DNA from: Corallococcus macrosporus
Lineage (GTDB): Bacteria; Myxococcota; Myxococcia; Myxococcales; Myxococcaceae
Reading direction: 5' to 3'
Assembly: GCF_017302985.1 (NCBI RefSeq)
Contig: NZ_JAFIMU010000009.1
Span: 248,001-312,000, forward strand
Length of the DNA: 64,000 nt
The notes under the pieces are model-generated. The model was not told the origin of the DNA. It saw nothing but the letters and a program-made list of their open reading frames with translations, and did not search any database. This document shows positions 19,599 through 54,277 of this stretch, in pieces. Numbering within the stretch: the stretch's first letter is position 1; every line of letters begins with the position of its first letter. The translations under genes were made by a program, and so were the position numbers.

Positions 19599-19623
19599 AA
19601 CTGGTCCGACAGTCGGACCAGTT
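19599..19623. repeat. Isolated 25-bp perfect palindrome in front of the FadR-like gene
   Basis: Twelve-bp arms, AACTGGTCCGAC and its exact reverse complement, surround a central A. It is the same core found in the 37-kb array and at 54253. It lies 47 bp before the proposed start of the GntR/FadR-like gene and 182 bp before the divergent deacetylase start, a position expected of an operator. The left arm matches the first 12 bases of the E. coli FadR operator consensus (AGCTGGTCCGAYNTGTT as I recall it) except one base. Confidence 0.9.
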
Positions 19624-19669: not shown

Positions 19670-20692
19670 ATGTCAGACCCGTCTGGTTGGATGGGCGAAG
19701 CATCGGCGAGAAGGGCGGCGGAGATGGTGAGGGTGGGGCTGGTGGCGTATGTGGAGCATCAGATTGAGCAGGACATCGCGCTGGGACGGCTGCCGAGGAA
19801 CGGGCGGCTGGCCTCGGAGCGGGTGATGGCGCACTGGTATGGCGTGTGCCGGGGCACGGTGCGCGAGGCCCTGCGGCGGCTGGCGGCACGGGGCCTGGTG
19901 GTGCAGCACCCCGGGCGCCAGGCGCGAGCGGTAGCCCTGGATGAATCGCTGACGCTGGAGAACCTGGGTCTGGCGCTGCATGCCGCGCGCTCCGAGGAGG
20001 GCCGACGGCTGCTGGAGGGCTTCTTCAGCCTCAAGCGGCAGGTGCTGGTGGAGCTCCTGGCCGACTGCTGCGCGAATGCCTCCGAGTCGGAGGTGAGCCG
20101 GTTGGAGTCCGTCTGCTACGCGCTCTGGGACGCGGCGCGCTGGCACCCCGGAGAGCGCTGCGCCCAGTTGGAGTTCGAGTTGCTGCGGCTGGCGGCCCAG
20201 GTGGCTGCGCGTCCCGGGCACCTGCTCCTCATCCAATCGCTGCAACGGGCCTTCAGGGGCATTGGGGCCCGGCTGCTGCCCTTCATGGGCGGCGAAGCCC
20301 TGGCCCAGTGGGCCCGGGGCGCGATGCATGCCCTGGACGAGCGCGACATGCAGGCGCTCCAGCACCAGCTGCCGACGCTGATGAAGGCGTGCGATGACGG
20401 CGTGCTCAACCGGTTTGCGCCAGTCCCCCACCAGGCGGGGCCTCTTGAGGCACCCCCCCTTGTCGAGGAGCGTGACCTCGGAACCCTCGCACCCGCCGCC
20501 GAGCCCACCGAAGCTCAGCTGCTTTCATCCGTTCCGGAGAGTCATCCCCGCGAACCCGGTGATGACTGCGTGCGGGCGGCGGGCCTCAACACGCCCGAAT
20601 CCCAGGACCCGCCTCCAGCCACGACCGGGCTGGAGGGTTACTCGCTTCTGGCGCCTTCCTTGCCTTCGACCCGGGAGCCACCTGATTCGTGA
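19670..20692 (+). CDS. GntR-family transcriptional regulator, FadR-like
   Basis: A 340-residue regulator. The winged helix-turn-helix spans about residues 20-90 and aligns well with E. coli FadR: the segments LASERVMAHWYGVCRGTVRE and LAARGLVVQH parallel FadR's AERELSELIGVTRTTLRE and LARDGWLTIQH. Arg51, Arg61, Arg65 and His80 fall on the FadR DNA contacts Arg35, Arg45, Arg49 and His65. The C-terminal all-helical domain (about 95-250) also resembles the FadR acyl-CoA-binding domain. Beyond it is a roughly 90-residue Pro-rich, low-complexity tail FadR lacks. The start at 19670 has no good Shine-Dalgarno sequence; ATG 19724 (MVRVGLVAYVEHQ) is an alternative. A palindrome just upstream suggests autoregulation. 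Effector and regulon are unknown. The stop is three bases from the convergent uvrA stop. Confidence 0.85.
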   Translation: MSDPSGWMGEASARRAAEMVRVGLVAYVEHQIEQDIALGRLPRNGRLASERVMAHWYGVCRGTVREALRRLAARGLVVQHPGRQARAVALDESLTLENLGLALHAARSEEGRRLLEGFFSLKRQVLVELLADCCANASESEVSRLESVCYALWDAARWHPGERCAQLEFELLRLAAQVAARPGHLLLIQSLQRAFRGIGARLLPFMGGEALAQWARGAMHALDERDMQALQHQLPTLMKACDDGVLNRFAPVPHQAGPLEAPPLVEERDLGTLAPAAEPTEAQLLSSVPESHPREPGDDCVRAAGLNTPESQDPPPATTGLEGYSLLAPSLPSTREPPDS

Positions 20693-36136: not shown

Positions 36137-37105
36137 ATGTCCAAGCCCTGTAATGCACAATCATCCGCCGGAGACACGGGAAGCCCGTCCGCGGTTTCGC
36201 GTCGAGGAGTCCTGACCGCGGGCGCCGCGCTGATGCTCACGGGATGCACGCCCCCGTCCGCTACTGGCTCACGCGCGTCTTCGGACGAAGTGAACAAGCT
36301 GGGGCCAGCGGCCTTCACGCAGCACCGGTTCACCTCCGCGGACGGGACCTCGTTGTCCTACTTCCGGCAGGGCCAGGGACCCGCGCTCGTCTGGGTCCAC
36401 GGCACGCTGAGCACCTGGGACGACTGGAGGGACGTCGCATCGCGGCTGTCCCCACGCTTCACGAACTTCGTGCTGGAGCGGCGTGGGCGAGGCGCCAGCG
36501 CGGACGGGACGGCGTATGCATTGGAGCGCGAAGTGGAGGACGTGCTCGCGCTGATGCAGGAGGCCGGGCCGGGAGCCTCGCTGTTCGGCCACTCGCTGGG
36601 CGCAATCCTCGCGCTGGAGGCGGCGACACGAAGGCCTCCGGCGAGGCTGGTGCTCTATGAGCCCCCGTTCCCCGTCTCCCAGCGCATCGCGCGCGAATCC
36701 GTGGACCTCGTCCGGACGACCTGGAAGCGCGAGGGACCGGACGCGGCGCTCGTGGCCGCGCAGCACCACATCTTCCGGATGCTCAAGCCGGAGCAACTCG
36801 AAGCCTTCCGTCAGACGCCCCAGTGGGCGAAGCAGCTCGGCATGATGGAGACCTTCCTGCGGGAAGTCAGCGCGGTGGCGGACCTCCCATTGGGCGTGGA
36901 TCGTTTCAGCGCGGTGGACACCAAGACCCTCGTGCTCCTGGGAAGCCAGAGCCCCCACGTGCTCCTCGTGGAGCCAGCCCACGCACTCGCGAAGACGCTC
37001 CCGCAAGTCTCCCTGCGCGTGCTGCCGGGCCAGGGACACGTGGCCCACGTCACCGCCCCCGCGCTGCTCGCAAGCGAGGTGGAGACCTTCCTCACCGCGC
37101 GCTGA
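36137..37105 (+). CDS. Exported alpha/beta hydrolase
   Basis: A 322-residue alpha/beta-fold hydrolase. The start ATG 36137 (MSKPCNAQ) follows AAAGGAAG. The N-terminus has a twin-arginine motif, SRRGVLTAGAALML, ending in TGC, so it looks like a Tat-exported lipoprotein. The hydrolase core shows the oxyanion HGTLSTWDDW segment, the nucleophile elbow FGHSLGA (Ser), an Asp position around LLGSQSPHV, and the C-terminal catalytic His in GQGHVAHVT. It probably cleaves an ester or similar small molecule outside the cytoplasm. It is divergent from a LysR gene and likely under its control. No terminator is seen after it; the palindrome array begins about 40 bp beyond the stop. Confidence 0.88.
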   Translation: MSKPCNAQSSAGDTGSPSAVSRRGVLTAGAALMLTGCTPPSATGSRASSDEVNKLGPAAFTQHRFTSADGTSLSYFRQGQGPALVWVHGTLSTWDDWRDVASRLSPRFTNFVLERRGRGASADGTAYALEREVEDVLALMQEAGPGASLFGHSLGAILALEAATRRPPARLVLYEPPFPVSQRIARESVDLVRTTWKREGPDAALVAAQHHIFRMLKPEQLEAFRQTPQWAKQLGMMETFLREVSAVADLPLGVDRFSAVDTKTLVLLGSQSPHVLLVEPAHALAKTLPQVSLRVLPGQGHVAHVTAPALLASEVETFLTAR

Positions 37106-37215
37106 TCCGACCGCAAAGCGGTCCACCGCCCCTTCAGGTGCTGATCGGACAGGTTCTCGCGACGCCGCCGTCGCCGAAGCTCACGGCCGCCGCGGATGCC
37201 TGCCTCAATGGTCCC

Positions 37216-37242
37216 AAACCTGTCCGACAGTCGGACAGGTTT
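37216..37242. repeat. Array unit 2: perfect palindrome, CCTG-type arms
   Basis: A 27-bp perfect palindrome with 13-bp arms AAACCTGTCCGAC around a central A. Confidence 0.9.
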
Positions 37243-37300
37243 CCTCGGCTCACCATCGCGGAGGCACCTGGCCCAGGCGGGTACCGGCTTCGGTTCTTCC

Positions 37301-37327
37301 AAACTGGTCCGACAGTCGGACCAGTTT
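37301..37327. repeat. Array unit 3: perfect palindrome, CTGG-type arms
   Basis: A 27-bp perfect palindrome with 13-bp arms AAACTGGTCCGAC around a central A; the inner 25 bp are identical to the isolated copies at 19599 and 54253. Confidence 0.9.
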
Positions 37328-37467
37328 CCTTGGCTCGCCGCCGCGGAGGCACCTGGCCAAGCGGGGACCAGCCCAGGTCGTTCAGTCAGTCGGGCTCTCG
37401 GACCGGTCTGACGGCTTCGCTGTCGCGGAGGATCTCAGCCACGACGGGTAAACCTCTCCGGTGGTCC

Positions 37468-37494
37468 AAACCTGTCCGACGGTCAGACTGGTTT
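37468..37494. repeat. Array unit 5: imperfect palindrome with mixed arms
   Basis: Left arm AAACCTGTCCGAC (CCTG type), central G, right arm GTCAGACTGGTTT, so the two arms no longer pair fully. It looks like a decayed or recombined unit. Confidence 0.8.
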
Positions 37495-37558
37495 TCGGGC
37501 GTCCGCCGTTGCCGAAGCTCCCGGCCCCGGTGGGCACTGGCCTGGGGGTTCCACGCCC

Positions 37559-37580
37559 GGTCCGACTGTCGGACAGGTTT
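37559..37580. repeat. Array unit 6: palindrome with truncated left arm
   Basis: GGTCCGAC, a central T, then the full right arm GTCGGACAGGTTT of the CCTG type. The outer left arm has diverged. Confidence 0.8.
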
Positions 37581-37638
37581 CCTCGGCTCACCATTGCGGC
37601 GGCTCCTGGCTCATGTGGGTGCCGGCCTCGGTCCTTCC

Positions 37639-37665
37639 AAACTGGTCCGACAGTCGGACCAGTTT
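37639..37665. repeat. Array unit 7: perfect palindrome, CTGG-type arms
   Basis: A 27-bp perfect palindrome, arms AAACTGGTCCGAC around A, identical to unit 3. Confidence 0.9.
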
Positions 37666-37713
37666 CCTTGGCTCGCCTCCGACGAGGCTGCATGTGCCTG
37701 CCCCCGTCCTTCC

Positions 37714-37739
37714 AAACTGGTCCGACAGTCGGACCAGTT
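37714..37739. repeat. Array unit 8: palindrome, CTGG-type arms, shorter spacer
   Basis: Same core as unit 7; the pairing ends one base earlier on the right. Its centre is only 75 bp from unit 7, ten less than the normal step. Confidence 0.9.
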
Positions 37740-37985
37740 CGTGGGGTGCGCCGCCCATGAGGGCTCACAGGGGCAGTCCTCTTTTCCCAGCCGGCAGCAC
37801 GCAGGTCCCAAGACTCGGGAGTCCTCGGGCTGAACAGCGCTGTCCAGGTCGGGAGGAAGGCCTGTGTCCTCGGACTTCCCGGGTTCCGAGGGCAGCAGGC
37901 GGGCGGACTACGGGCCAGGGTGTGGGAATGCCCTCAAAGGAGCATGAAAACGGCGCCCCTGGCCGTTCTAGAGTCCTCGCCCCGC

Positions 37986-40900
37986 ATGTCCCGCCCTGGC
38001 CGCACACTCCACGTCTTCCCCGATGCCGCGCGCCGCCAGGCTGCCCTGCGGGCGGAGCGGCGTGCGCGGGGCATCGCCGTGGGGACCCACCTGCTCACGT
38101 GGGACGACTTCGTCCACGCCCTGGGTGGGGCTCGCGAGCTCAACCGGCGGCCCTGTCCCGCGATGACGGCCCGGGCCGTGGTGGCGGGCCTGGGCACCAC
38201 GCTGGGCCCCACGCCGTTCGGCGACTACGTGCGCGAGCCCGCCTTCGCCCGCGCCGCCGCGGACGTGCTGCTGGACCTCAAGGCCGGGCGCCTCTCCCCG
38301 CGCGAACTCCAGGACGCCGCCGAGGTCCTGCCGCCAGAGCGCCGCACCCGCGCACGCGTCCTCGCGCGGCTCTATCACCTGTACGAACAGCGCCTCGCGG
38401 AGCTGGGGCTCGCGGACCGCGAGGACGTGCTCCGGGGCGCGCGTGAGGCGCTCGACCGGGGTGCGTGGCCCACGGGCTGGGACGGCGTCACGGGGCTCGT
38501 GCTCCATGGCGTCTACGACGTGCGCCCGTCGAAGCTGGAGCTGCTGATGGGCCTCGCCGCGGCGTGCGAGGCGCGCCGTGTGTCGCTGCGCGTGGAGACG
38601 CCCGTGGGCGGCTCTCCCGTGGCGGACGCGGCGCTCGCGGCGCTGTTCCGCGCGTTCGAGAACCGGGGCGAGACGATGCCCCACGTCGACCTCTTCAAGG
38701 CGGACGTCACCTTCGAGGGCCGGCCCTTCACGGACCTGGGACGGCACCTGTTCTCACCCCGCGCCGCGCGAGACGTGCTCAAGGGCGCGGTGGACGGGCT
38801 GTCCGTGTGGAACGCGACGTCCGCTCGCGAGGAGGCCCGCGTGGTGGCCCGCGACGTGCGGCGGCTCATCGACTCGGGCAGCGCGCCGGGCGACATCGCC
38901 ATCGCGTACCGCGACCTGGGGCCGGAATCGGGCTGGCTCGCGGAGGCCCTGGGCGACCTGGGCGTGCCGGTGCGCCTGCCCTGGGGAGAGCCGCTCGCGC
39001 TCGCGGGGCCGGTGCGGCTGGCGCTGGAGCTGCCGGTGCTGACGGAGGACGGCTTCCCGGCGGAGCGCGTGGCGGAGCTCGTCTCCAGCCGCTACGTGCC
39101 GTCACTGTCGCGCGGAGGCCCGGATGCGCCCGCGACCCTCTTCGCGCTCGCCGCCGCGCGGGACGACCGCCTGGGCGCCACGCGAGGGAAGGGCGCCTAC
39201 GACGTGCGTCTGGACGGGCTCGCGCGCCGGATGGCCGCGCAGGGCGGCAAGCGCAAGGAGGACGCGGTCAAGGTGATGGCCGTGCGCGCGCTGCGCGACC
39301 GCGTGATGCGGCTCATCGACGAGTGCCGCCACATCCCCCAGGAGGCCCCCGCCGCGGAGTCGGTCTCCGCGTGGTGGAAGGTGGTGGAGCGGCTGGGCCT
39401 GCTCGACTCCGCGGGGCCCATGGAGGCGAAGGAGGCCGGCGCACTGGGCGCGCGCATCGAGGACGCGCGGGCCCGGGACGACGCGGCGCTCGCGGCCTTC
39501 CGCCAGCGGATGGAAGCGCTGCTGCGCTCGCTGCGAGCCGTGGGTGGAGGCCCGCGCATCACCCGGCGCGTGCTGGGCCGGTGGCTCGCGGACGCGCTGC
39601 GCGACGTGCACCTGCCCGCGCGAGGCCCCTCCACGGGCGCGGTGGAGGTGCTGGACCTGGCCGAGGTTCCGGGCCGCACCTTCCGCCACCTCTTCGTCGC
39701 CGGGCTCACCGAAGGCCGGCTCCCCGGACGGGATCCGCCGTCGCCGCTGCTGGGGGACGCGGAGCGCGTGGCGCTCAACCAGCACCTGACCCGCGACGTC
39801 TTCCGCCTCACCGGCGGCGAGTTCGACGACCGTGCACCCTGGCGCCTCACCGAGGACCGGCTGCTCTTCGCCAGCGCGCTCGCGGCGGCGGAGGGCACGT
39901 TGAGCCTGTCGTTCGCGGTGAAGGCCTCGGGTGGACAGGAGCAGGTGCCGTCCGCGTTCCTCGAGGAGGTGCGCAGGCTCACCGGCCACAAGTGGGCCAC
40001 GCGCACGCTGCCCCCCGTGCTGCCGCTGGACGAGGTGCTCACGCCGTCGGAGCTGCGGCGCACCGTGGCGCTGGAGGCGCTGGCGGGCCTGTCGTTCCCC
40101 ACCTTGCGCGTCACGGAGCCCGACCCCGCGGGAGCGCTGCTCAAGGACCGCTTCGGCACGGACGACTGGTTCCGCACCGCGCGCGAGCTGGCCCACATGG
40201 AGGCCGCGCGCCTGCGCTTCTTCGGCCGCGAGGACGAACTGCCCGGCGAGTTCACCGGCGGCGTGCAGGGTCCCCTGTTGGAGCAGAAGCTGCGCGAGAC
40301 GTTCCACTTCGGCCTGGAGCGCCCGCTGTCCGCGAGCGCCCTGTCGAAGTTCGGCAACTGCGGCTTCCAGGGCTTCATCGCGTACGGCCTCAAGGTGGCC
40401 GAGCCCGTGGTGGCCAGCGAGGAGTTCGACGCCCGCGGACGCGGCACCTTCTGGCACCGCGTGATGGAGGAGGTCTTCCAGACGCTCAAGGAGAAGAAGC
40501 TCCTGGGGCAGGCGCCGGAGGACATCCCCGACGACGTGTTGGAGAAGGCGGTCAAGAAGGCCAGCCGCCACTTCGCGGAGCTCAACCACGTGGGCCACCA
40601 CGAGCTGTGGAAGCTCGCGGGCGAGAAGGCCCACGCGATGGTCCGGCGCATCCTCACGGATCAGCGGCGCGGCCTGCCCTTCGACCCGCTGGTGCCCGAG
40701 GGCTTCGAGCTGCGCTTCGGCCCGGCCGCGGAGGACAAGCGCTGGGCCGACGTGAAGCTGATGGTGGCGGATGACGCCATCGTCTTCGAGGGGCAGATCG
40801 ACCGGCTGGACACGGCCGGCACGGAAGTGGGCGTCATCGACTACAAGACGGGCCGCCTGGACAAGCGCACGCTGAAGGAGAACCTGCTGCGCTCGGACTT

Positions 40901-54252: not shown

Positions 54253-54277
54253 AACTGGTCCGACAGTCGGACCAGTT
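54253..54277. repeat. Isolated 25-bp perfect palindrome between convergent genes
   Basis: Same core as at 19599: arms AACTGGTCCGAC around a central A. It lies 139 bp after the cdnL stop and 38 bp after the FHA gene's stop on the other strand, so it is downstream of both genes. No T-run follows on either strand. The flanks do not resemble the array spacers, so only the core has been shared. Confidence 0.9.

Follow-up and report, generated by a model that had tools for sequence, protein, structure and literature searches.

A tandem array of palindromes upstream of addB

The window, that is, the whole stretch of 64,000 nucleotides of DNA analysed here from Corallococcus macrosporus, a predatory bacterium, carries between a hydrolase gene and addB a tandem array (37145-37739) that was delimited by Tandem Repeats Finder (TRF) and by sequence comparison, and that consists of a half-palindrome followed by seven palindromes with a period of about 85 bp. 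The array begins about 40 bp past the hydrolase stop codon and precedes addB, on the same strand, with 246 bp between its end and the ATG of that gene (37986); the stretch between the array and this start codon (37740-37985, + strand) is outside the array and may hold an addB promoter or leader. The initial annotation had described eight units at this place, and both the array and the steps between its centres are as claimed, but the sequence of the first unit (37145-37155) corresponds to the right half of a palindrome only, TCGGACAGGTT. It is followed by a perfect palindrome with class B arms (AACCTG/CAGGTT; 37217-37241), a perfect palindrome with class A arms (AACTGG/CCAGTT; 37302-37326), a decayed one with three core mismatches (37384-37408), an imperfect one with one core mismatch (37469-37493), another imperfect one with an exact core and unequal arms (37555-37579), and two perfect class A palindromes (37640-37664 and 37715-37739), the last of which is the terminal unit, has the canonical flank of the element and is likely the founder copy. 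No strand is assigned to the array or to any of its units. Four of the seven palindromes are thus perfect over at least 25 bp and three are imperfect or decayed, with centres (1-based) at 37229, 37314, 37396, 37481, 37567, 37652 and 37727 and steps of 85, 82, 85, 86, 85 and 75 bp.

TRF returned a period of 85 with 5.5 copies and 66% matches, which agrees with the period first reported. The description of the array as a true tandem repeat with related spacers is likewise borne out, by TRF, by a neighbour flank identity of 57% and by a higher-order duplication within the array, in which 37145-37350 and 37483-37688 (206 bp) are 81% identical at an offset of 338 bp, equal to four units. Because the spacers are mutually related, a CRISPR array was rejected. 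Phasing at about eight helical turns had also been proposed; as a rule it does not hold, since spacings within clusters of the same genome are 42, 51-77, 82-86, 99-118 and 126-142 bp, with a few larger (most commonly 65-75 bp, and also 42, 85, 108, 114 and 136 bp), and a general helical phasing of arrays was rejected on this variation from array to array. When the whole window was scanned for the 17-mer core with up to three mismatches, 14 strand-matches were found, against a mean of 0.55 and a largest value of 3 in shuffled sequence. Two further copies in the window, at 19599-19623 and 54253-54277, had not been part of the first list drawn up for the array; the latter is a single dispersed class A palindrome (no strand assigned) in a convergent gap, according to gene calls made by script.

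A dispersed palindrome family of Corallococcus

The palindrome is 25 bp long with the core GTCCGAC-W-GTCGGAC, and GTCCGAC and GTCGGAC abut in every exact core. The exact core GTCCGACNGTCGGAC occurs at 158 places in the 9.8-Mb genome, against none for the reversed pattern, and the element is a dispersed short extragenic palindrome in high copy, above chance. A site set made of 68 stretches around known sites plus the window (630 kb in total, 153 exact cores) resolves into 45 singles, with at most one core mismatch, and 31 clusters of 2-18 sites, with at most two.

Within a 117-genome sample of the phylum, all 11 same-genus genomes contained the core, with 4 to 158 copies each; none of the 35 genomes from other genera of the family did, and among the 71 remaining genomes it occurred once, in a single one. 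A scan of named genomes gave, among the matches listed, many Corallococcus records, about one occurrence each in scattered other taxa, and clusters of the core in Hyalangium versicolor with other outer arms. These last clusters occupy positions 77-342 and 323-589 of two 8-kb loci (L081 and L090), with outer arms of a GATTC/GAA type and a spacing of 35-141 bp, and add a third arm type, from a different genus. Neither of these two loci contained a homolog of the regulator described below.

FadR-like regulators and their putative operators

When the surroundings of all sites were compared with one another, 13 clusters proved to adjoin a repeated gene, whose copy in the window lies at 19670-20692 (+ strand). 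Its product contains a GntR winged helix domain (PF00392, E 5.8e-12, 45.5 bits against a cut-off of 27), together with a match to the C-terminal FCD domain that falls below the cut-off (E 0.024). The structure model is of low confidence (pLDDT 55), and its best PDB matches, to NanR, FadR and other GntR proteins, have low TM-scores, below 0.4. The window protein belongs to a FadR-like GntR family with 15 paralogs in this genome, whose identity to it over 244 residues is 72-100%. Each of the 15 genes is preceded by the palindrome, at 59-80 bp from its start codon, 13 with an exact core and two with one mismatch, and in all 15 the arm class, A (AACTGG) or B (AACCTG), agrees with the protein clade. 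For the window gene this is the class A palindrome at 19599-19623 (no strand assigned), centred 59 bp before the ATG, a presumed autoregulatory operator.

The same arrangement extends to the genus. A profile search of 16 Corallococcus genomes gave 115 regulator matches, of which 102 were examined; the 13 left out are mostly fragments or contig-edge copies (G073 5, G119 4, G058 2, G056 1 and G071 1), and six of those examined lie at contig edges, leaving 96 genes with upstream sequence. In 96 of 96, a palindrome with at most two core mismatches lies 47-85 bp before the start (the site nearest 75 bp was used where several occurred within 300 bp upstream), a count that is not one of independent genes, as paralogs carry their upstream region along when duplicated. 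For the same reason the periodicity of operator-to-start distances in the 96 genes (resultant 0.49 at 10 bp) was not used as evidence of helical phasing. Binding of the palindrome by these regulators appears well supported by sequence comparison, and the protein-binding or decoy role suggested at the outset is supported.

What is copied around the genome seems to be longer than the palindrome. The flanks of dispersed class A singles (14-45 bp from the centre, on both sides) are shared with the class A operators of regulator genes: six of the eight class A operators of this genome were scored, and all six exceeded the GC-matched 95th percentile. The sharing is less clear for class B, for which 2 of 5 regulator operators passed the same cut. 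The copied unit, at least for class A, therefore seems to be about 80-90 bp.

In another genus of the family, one genome (G153) has a single close homolog (L349, E 3.8e-112) with an apparent decayed class B palindrome upstream, for which horizontal transfer is possible. Relatives of the regulator are amplified outside Corallococcus, in another genus, with 28 copies in G084 and 16 in G136. Another shared palindrome was predicted upstream of these genes, and this was not borne out: no common palindrome was found in 20 upstream regions (L352, L354-L365 and L366-L373), which hold unrelated 8-bp inverted repeats in 3 of 20. Amplification without a shared palindrome counts against a simple obligate pairing of regulator and palindrome. 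Groups of these G084 and G136 copies do have common upstream sequence, which extends about 45 or 200 bp back from the start, and by eye a lone half-palindrome, AACCTGTCCGAC, is seen upstream of one G136 gene (L373). The C-terminal tails of the regulators are highly variable; those of L254, L256, L257, L260 and L286 end in a GRWAxRLWRF-like segment that the window copy lacks, and a conserved tail across the family was rejected, as this segment is present in only a few paralogs.

An arginine that accompanies one operator class

The window protein aligns with the FadR of Vibrio alginolyticus without gaps over the helix-turn-helix, and its residue 51 aligns with the Arg of the AER motif of that protein, an Arg which we take to correspond to Arg35 of E. 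coli FadR. Operators of the FadR subfamily, such as that of E. coli FadR, have a GT-N3-AC core and TKGT/ACMA boxes according to PMC4494728, in which Glu34 of E. coli FadR is given as position 27 of the helix-turn-helix (Table 1), and therefore Arg35 is position 28 by counting. The same paper reports that Arg at position 28 goes with a strong preference for G/C at one base of the TKGT/ACMA box, which we read as the variable K/M base. In the palindromes described here the variable base is position -8, which is G in class A (TGGT) and T in class B (CTGT). Arg occupies the position aligned with FadR Arg35 in 20 of 20 genes with class A (TGGT) operators and in 0 of 76 others; the latter have Ala, Glu, Gln, Lys, Val, His or Tyr there, and their operators are CT-like in 73 cases and odd in three. 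The match between residue and arm is in line with the FadR-type specificity set out in PMC4494728. On the regulator tree the Arg label needs two changes (2-3 in bootstrap trees) and the strongly supported branches force only one, and therefore its history may involve two switches or one.

Co-variation of regulators and sites

The two classes also differ in their distribution over the 16 genomes. The five genomes found to have Arg-type regulators contain 45, 39, 15, 9 and 1 exact class A 25-mers; among the other eleven, ten have none and one (G119, 93% complete) has a single site, and of its six regulator matches the two examined are both of non-Arg type. G077 has a single class A site, which is the operator of the one Arg-type gene in that genome. 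Exact class B 25-mers occur in 15 of the 16 genomes, the exception being G046, a genome without a regulator match that nevertheless has 12 sites at up to two mismatches. Over the 16 genomes, and with phylogeny ignored and the 13 unexamined matches counted as non-Arg, the Spearman correlation is 0.93 between Arg-type regulators and class A sites and 0.92 between other types and class B sites, against 0.48 and 0.30 for the cross terms. Total regulators and total sites correlate with a rho of 0.83 over the 16 genomes, and weakly in the ten genomes with at least six regulators (rho 0.44, p 0.20), in which the correlation of other types with class B remains at 0.74 (p 0.014).

Genomic placement and the hairpin question

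Removal of the 13 regulator-linked clusters from the total of 76 leaves 63 dispersed clusters, which are found in convergent gaps (19), tandem gaps (37), divergent gaps (3) and inside predicted genes (4); 30 of the 37 in tandem gaps are nearer the 3' end of the upstream gene. Of 37 convergent gaps 17 contain a palindrome, compared with 3 of the 83 divergent ones (Fisher p 5e-8); genes were called by a crude codon-usage script for this, and the gaps compared are those of loci picked for carrying a site. Dispersed sites thus avoid divergent promoters and sit near gene 3' ends, which is the pattern that PMC3733652 describes for REPs, unlike that of a classical regulon. Palindromes within script-predicted genes were noted in L226 (4008), L230 (7929), L216 (4043-4385) and L220 (3952-4012), and could be in-frame insertions or errors of gene calling.

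This placement raises an alternative, namely that the elements are REP-like extragenic palindromes acting as hairpins at mRNA 3' ends or spreading as selfish DNA, and that the regulator genes happen to carry one on their 5' side. In its favour are the location at gene 3' ends and in convergent gaps, shared with the REPs of PMC3733652, the local tandem growth of the sites and a strong predicted RNA hairpin, whose z-scores are between -3.8 and -4.4 in three units on the + strand and -3.4 in one on the - strand. A hairpin role, however, predicts neither the match between arm class and the residue at the Arg35 position nor a class-specific co-variation of numbers. Moreover, 12 of the 153 exact cores are hybrid sites with a class A arm on one side and a class B arm on the other, which break hairpin pairs and keep the protein half-sites, an observation that recombination between repeats could also produce. 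No match to the RAYT/Y1 transposase (PF01797) was found in this genome, against 5 of 14 control genomes positive. A scan of 37000-38100 for terminators and promoters gave nothing, with 0 terminator-like sites and no hairpin followed by a T run, and an intrinsic terminator was rejected on this ground; Rfam gave no match in the window at gathering thresholds. A covarying outer stem was also rejected: in class A, flanks of one site pair with -35.7 kcal/mol and flanks combined from different sites with -36.1 kcal/mol, which is no gain, in class B the gain is slight (-29.2 versus -26.8 kcal/mol, sd 6.9), and therefore the long imperfect hairpin reflects a shared consensus and not covariation. On balance the REP-like explanation is considered unlikely.

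Growth of the array at the addB locus

The hydrolase gene has a near full-length match in 8 of the 16 genomes searched, and these define the set in which the hydrolase-addB gap was compared. The gap has no palindrome in G118 and G093 (154 and 187 bp), one full palindrome in G073, G082 and G056 (289-344 bp, preceded by a half-palindrome in two of the three), the array of 85-bp period in the C. macrosporus genome (880 bp), and arrays with a period of about 60 bp in G077 (993 bp) and G071 (1265 bp). Arrays at this site grew independently in relatives. The test that the initial annotation set for its own refutation had a divided outcome, in which array length and period are not conserved and the palindrome itself is kept at the site in six of the eight; it follows that the array looks like a local expansion of a dispersed site under selection. 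By eye, the right flank of the last unit of the C. macrosporus array matches the flank of the single palindrome in G073, and therefore this unit is probably the founder, from which the array would have grown towards the hydrolase gene.

An operator array or structured leader RNA controlling addAB had been put forward, and the position of the array upstream of addB on the same strand speaks for it. The array nevertheless follows the hydrolase stop codon closely and stops 246 bp short of the addB ATG, the element is general and genome-wide, and the palindrome is absent from two of the eight species and single in three, while the segment just before addB looks similar by eye in all eight Corallococcus loci, with or without palindromes. 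A role of the array in addAB is accordingly unlikely, and control of addAB by an operator or leader is given hardly any weight. Another possibility is that the array serves nucleoid organisation, replication or a roadblock, with the regulators bridging or condensing arrays or halting convergent transcription. The many sites, the multi-copy arrays and the location in convergent gaps are compatible with such a function, and two FadR-type boxes per palindrome could permit higher-order assembly; as neither number nor period is conserved even at one orthologous site, this explanation is judged distinctly improbable.

The remaining alternative, a passive tandem expansion that is functionless at this place, is compatible with a palindrome bound by regulators. 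It accounts for arrays that arose independently in different species, with periods of 85 and about 60 bp, and for their absence from others, and for the terminal position of the most canonically flanked unit in 18 of 20 arrays of at least three units (7.8 expected), a count that is inflated because end units keep an outside flank anyway. Against it, the palindrome is kept while the spacers drift, with a neighbour identity in arrays of 0.88 inside the palindrome versus 0.57 in the flanks, a difference partly ascertained because the core served to locate the sites. The outer AAC/GTT positions, which played no part in locating them, show 96-98% conservation among 153 exact cores. Passive expansion is rather unlikely, and is the most serious of the alternatives.

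Proposed role of the arrays

The palindromes before regulator genes, the residue match, the co-varying numbers and the avoidance of promoters lead us to infer regulator-binding arrays that titrate their regulators, and this sponge role is the one preferred. We regard it as probable that the array arose by tandem expansion, at this place, of an operator which recurs throughout the genus and belongs to FadR-like regulators, and that promoter-distal arrays titrate the regulators and drive co-amplification. Under this proposal, AAC(TG/CT)GTCCGAC-W-GTCGGAC(CA/AG)GTT would be the binding site of a FadR-like GntR family with 15 paralogs in this genome, and, having two abutting FadR-type GT-N3-AC boxes, may take two dimers. 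The copy before each regulator start codon would most likely mediate autorepression, whereas most other copies, alone or arrayed, lie at gene 3' ends and off divergent promoters. From there, promoter-distal arrays may act as sponges for the autoregulated paralogs, holding the numbers of sites and regulators in balance, and such a balance could in turn drive the co-amplification of both. Binding itself, autorepression, titration and the way in which units reach new places are the conjectural steps of this scheme.

Dispersed palindromes are usually credited to transposases or RNA hairpins; here the evidence from sequence links a palindrome in high copy to DNA-binding regulators of a lineage-specific family, and a residue-to-base switch goes with the palindrome class found in each species. 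In a broader sense, these elements may be a REP-like palindrome family partnered, in place of a transposase, with a transcription-factor family with which it co-amplifies, in which a change of specificity residue spread a second operator class, giving a self-sustaining and possibly selfish regulator-operator economy, a view on which our judgement is evenly divided. The genus would offer a natural system in which to see how bacteria, and perhaps selfish regulators, cope with hundreds of operator copies.

Relation to known systems

Repetitive DNA has reportedly been described in a related genus by Fujitani et al., as the RMX repeat of Myxococcus xanthus; the exact core of the present element is absent from 35 of 35 genomes sampled from other genera of the family. 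A literature search gave, among the matches listed and with subscription journals mostly outside its reach, no report of the repeat or of the regulator family.

The FadR subfamily, as presented in PMC4494728, shares with the present regulators the GntR helix-turn-helix, the GT-N3-AC boxes, a palindrome before the regulator's own gene and the occurrence of G in the TKGT box together with Arg at the residue equivalent to position 28. The Corallococcus system differs in the two abutting boxes within a 25-bp palindrome, in the up to 15 close paralogs per genome, and in that most sites are promoter-distal and many are arrayed. With REP/BIME elements and their RAYTs (PMC3733652) it has in common palindromes of 20-40 bp that occur more than 100 times, alone or clustered, at the 3' ends of genes and between convergent ones; in contrast, no Y1 transposase was found in this genome, the numbers co-vary with a transcription-factor family and the spacers are array-specific. 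A functional parallel may be with DNA sponges or decoy sites (PMC7686491), with which the arrays would share a surplus of promoter-distal binding sites, and from which they differ in being natural and chromosomal, in comprising two arm classes and in co-varying with the protein whose titration is putative.
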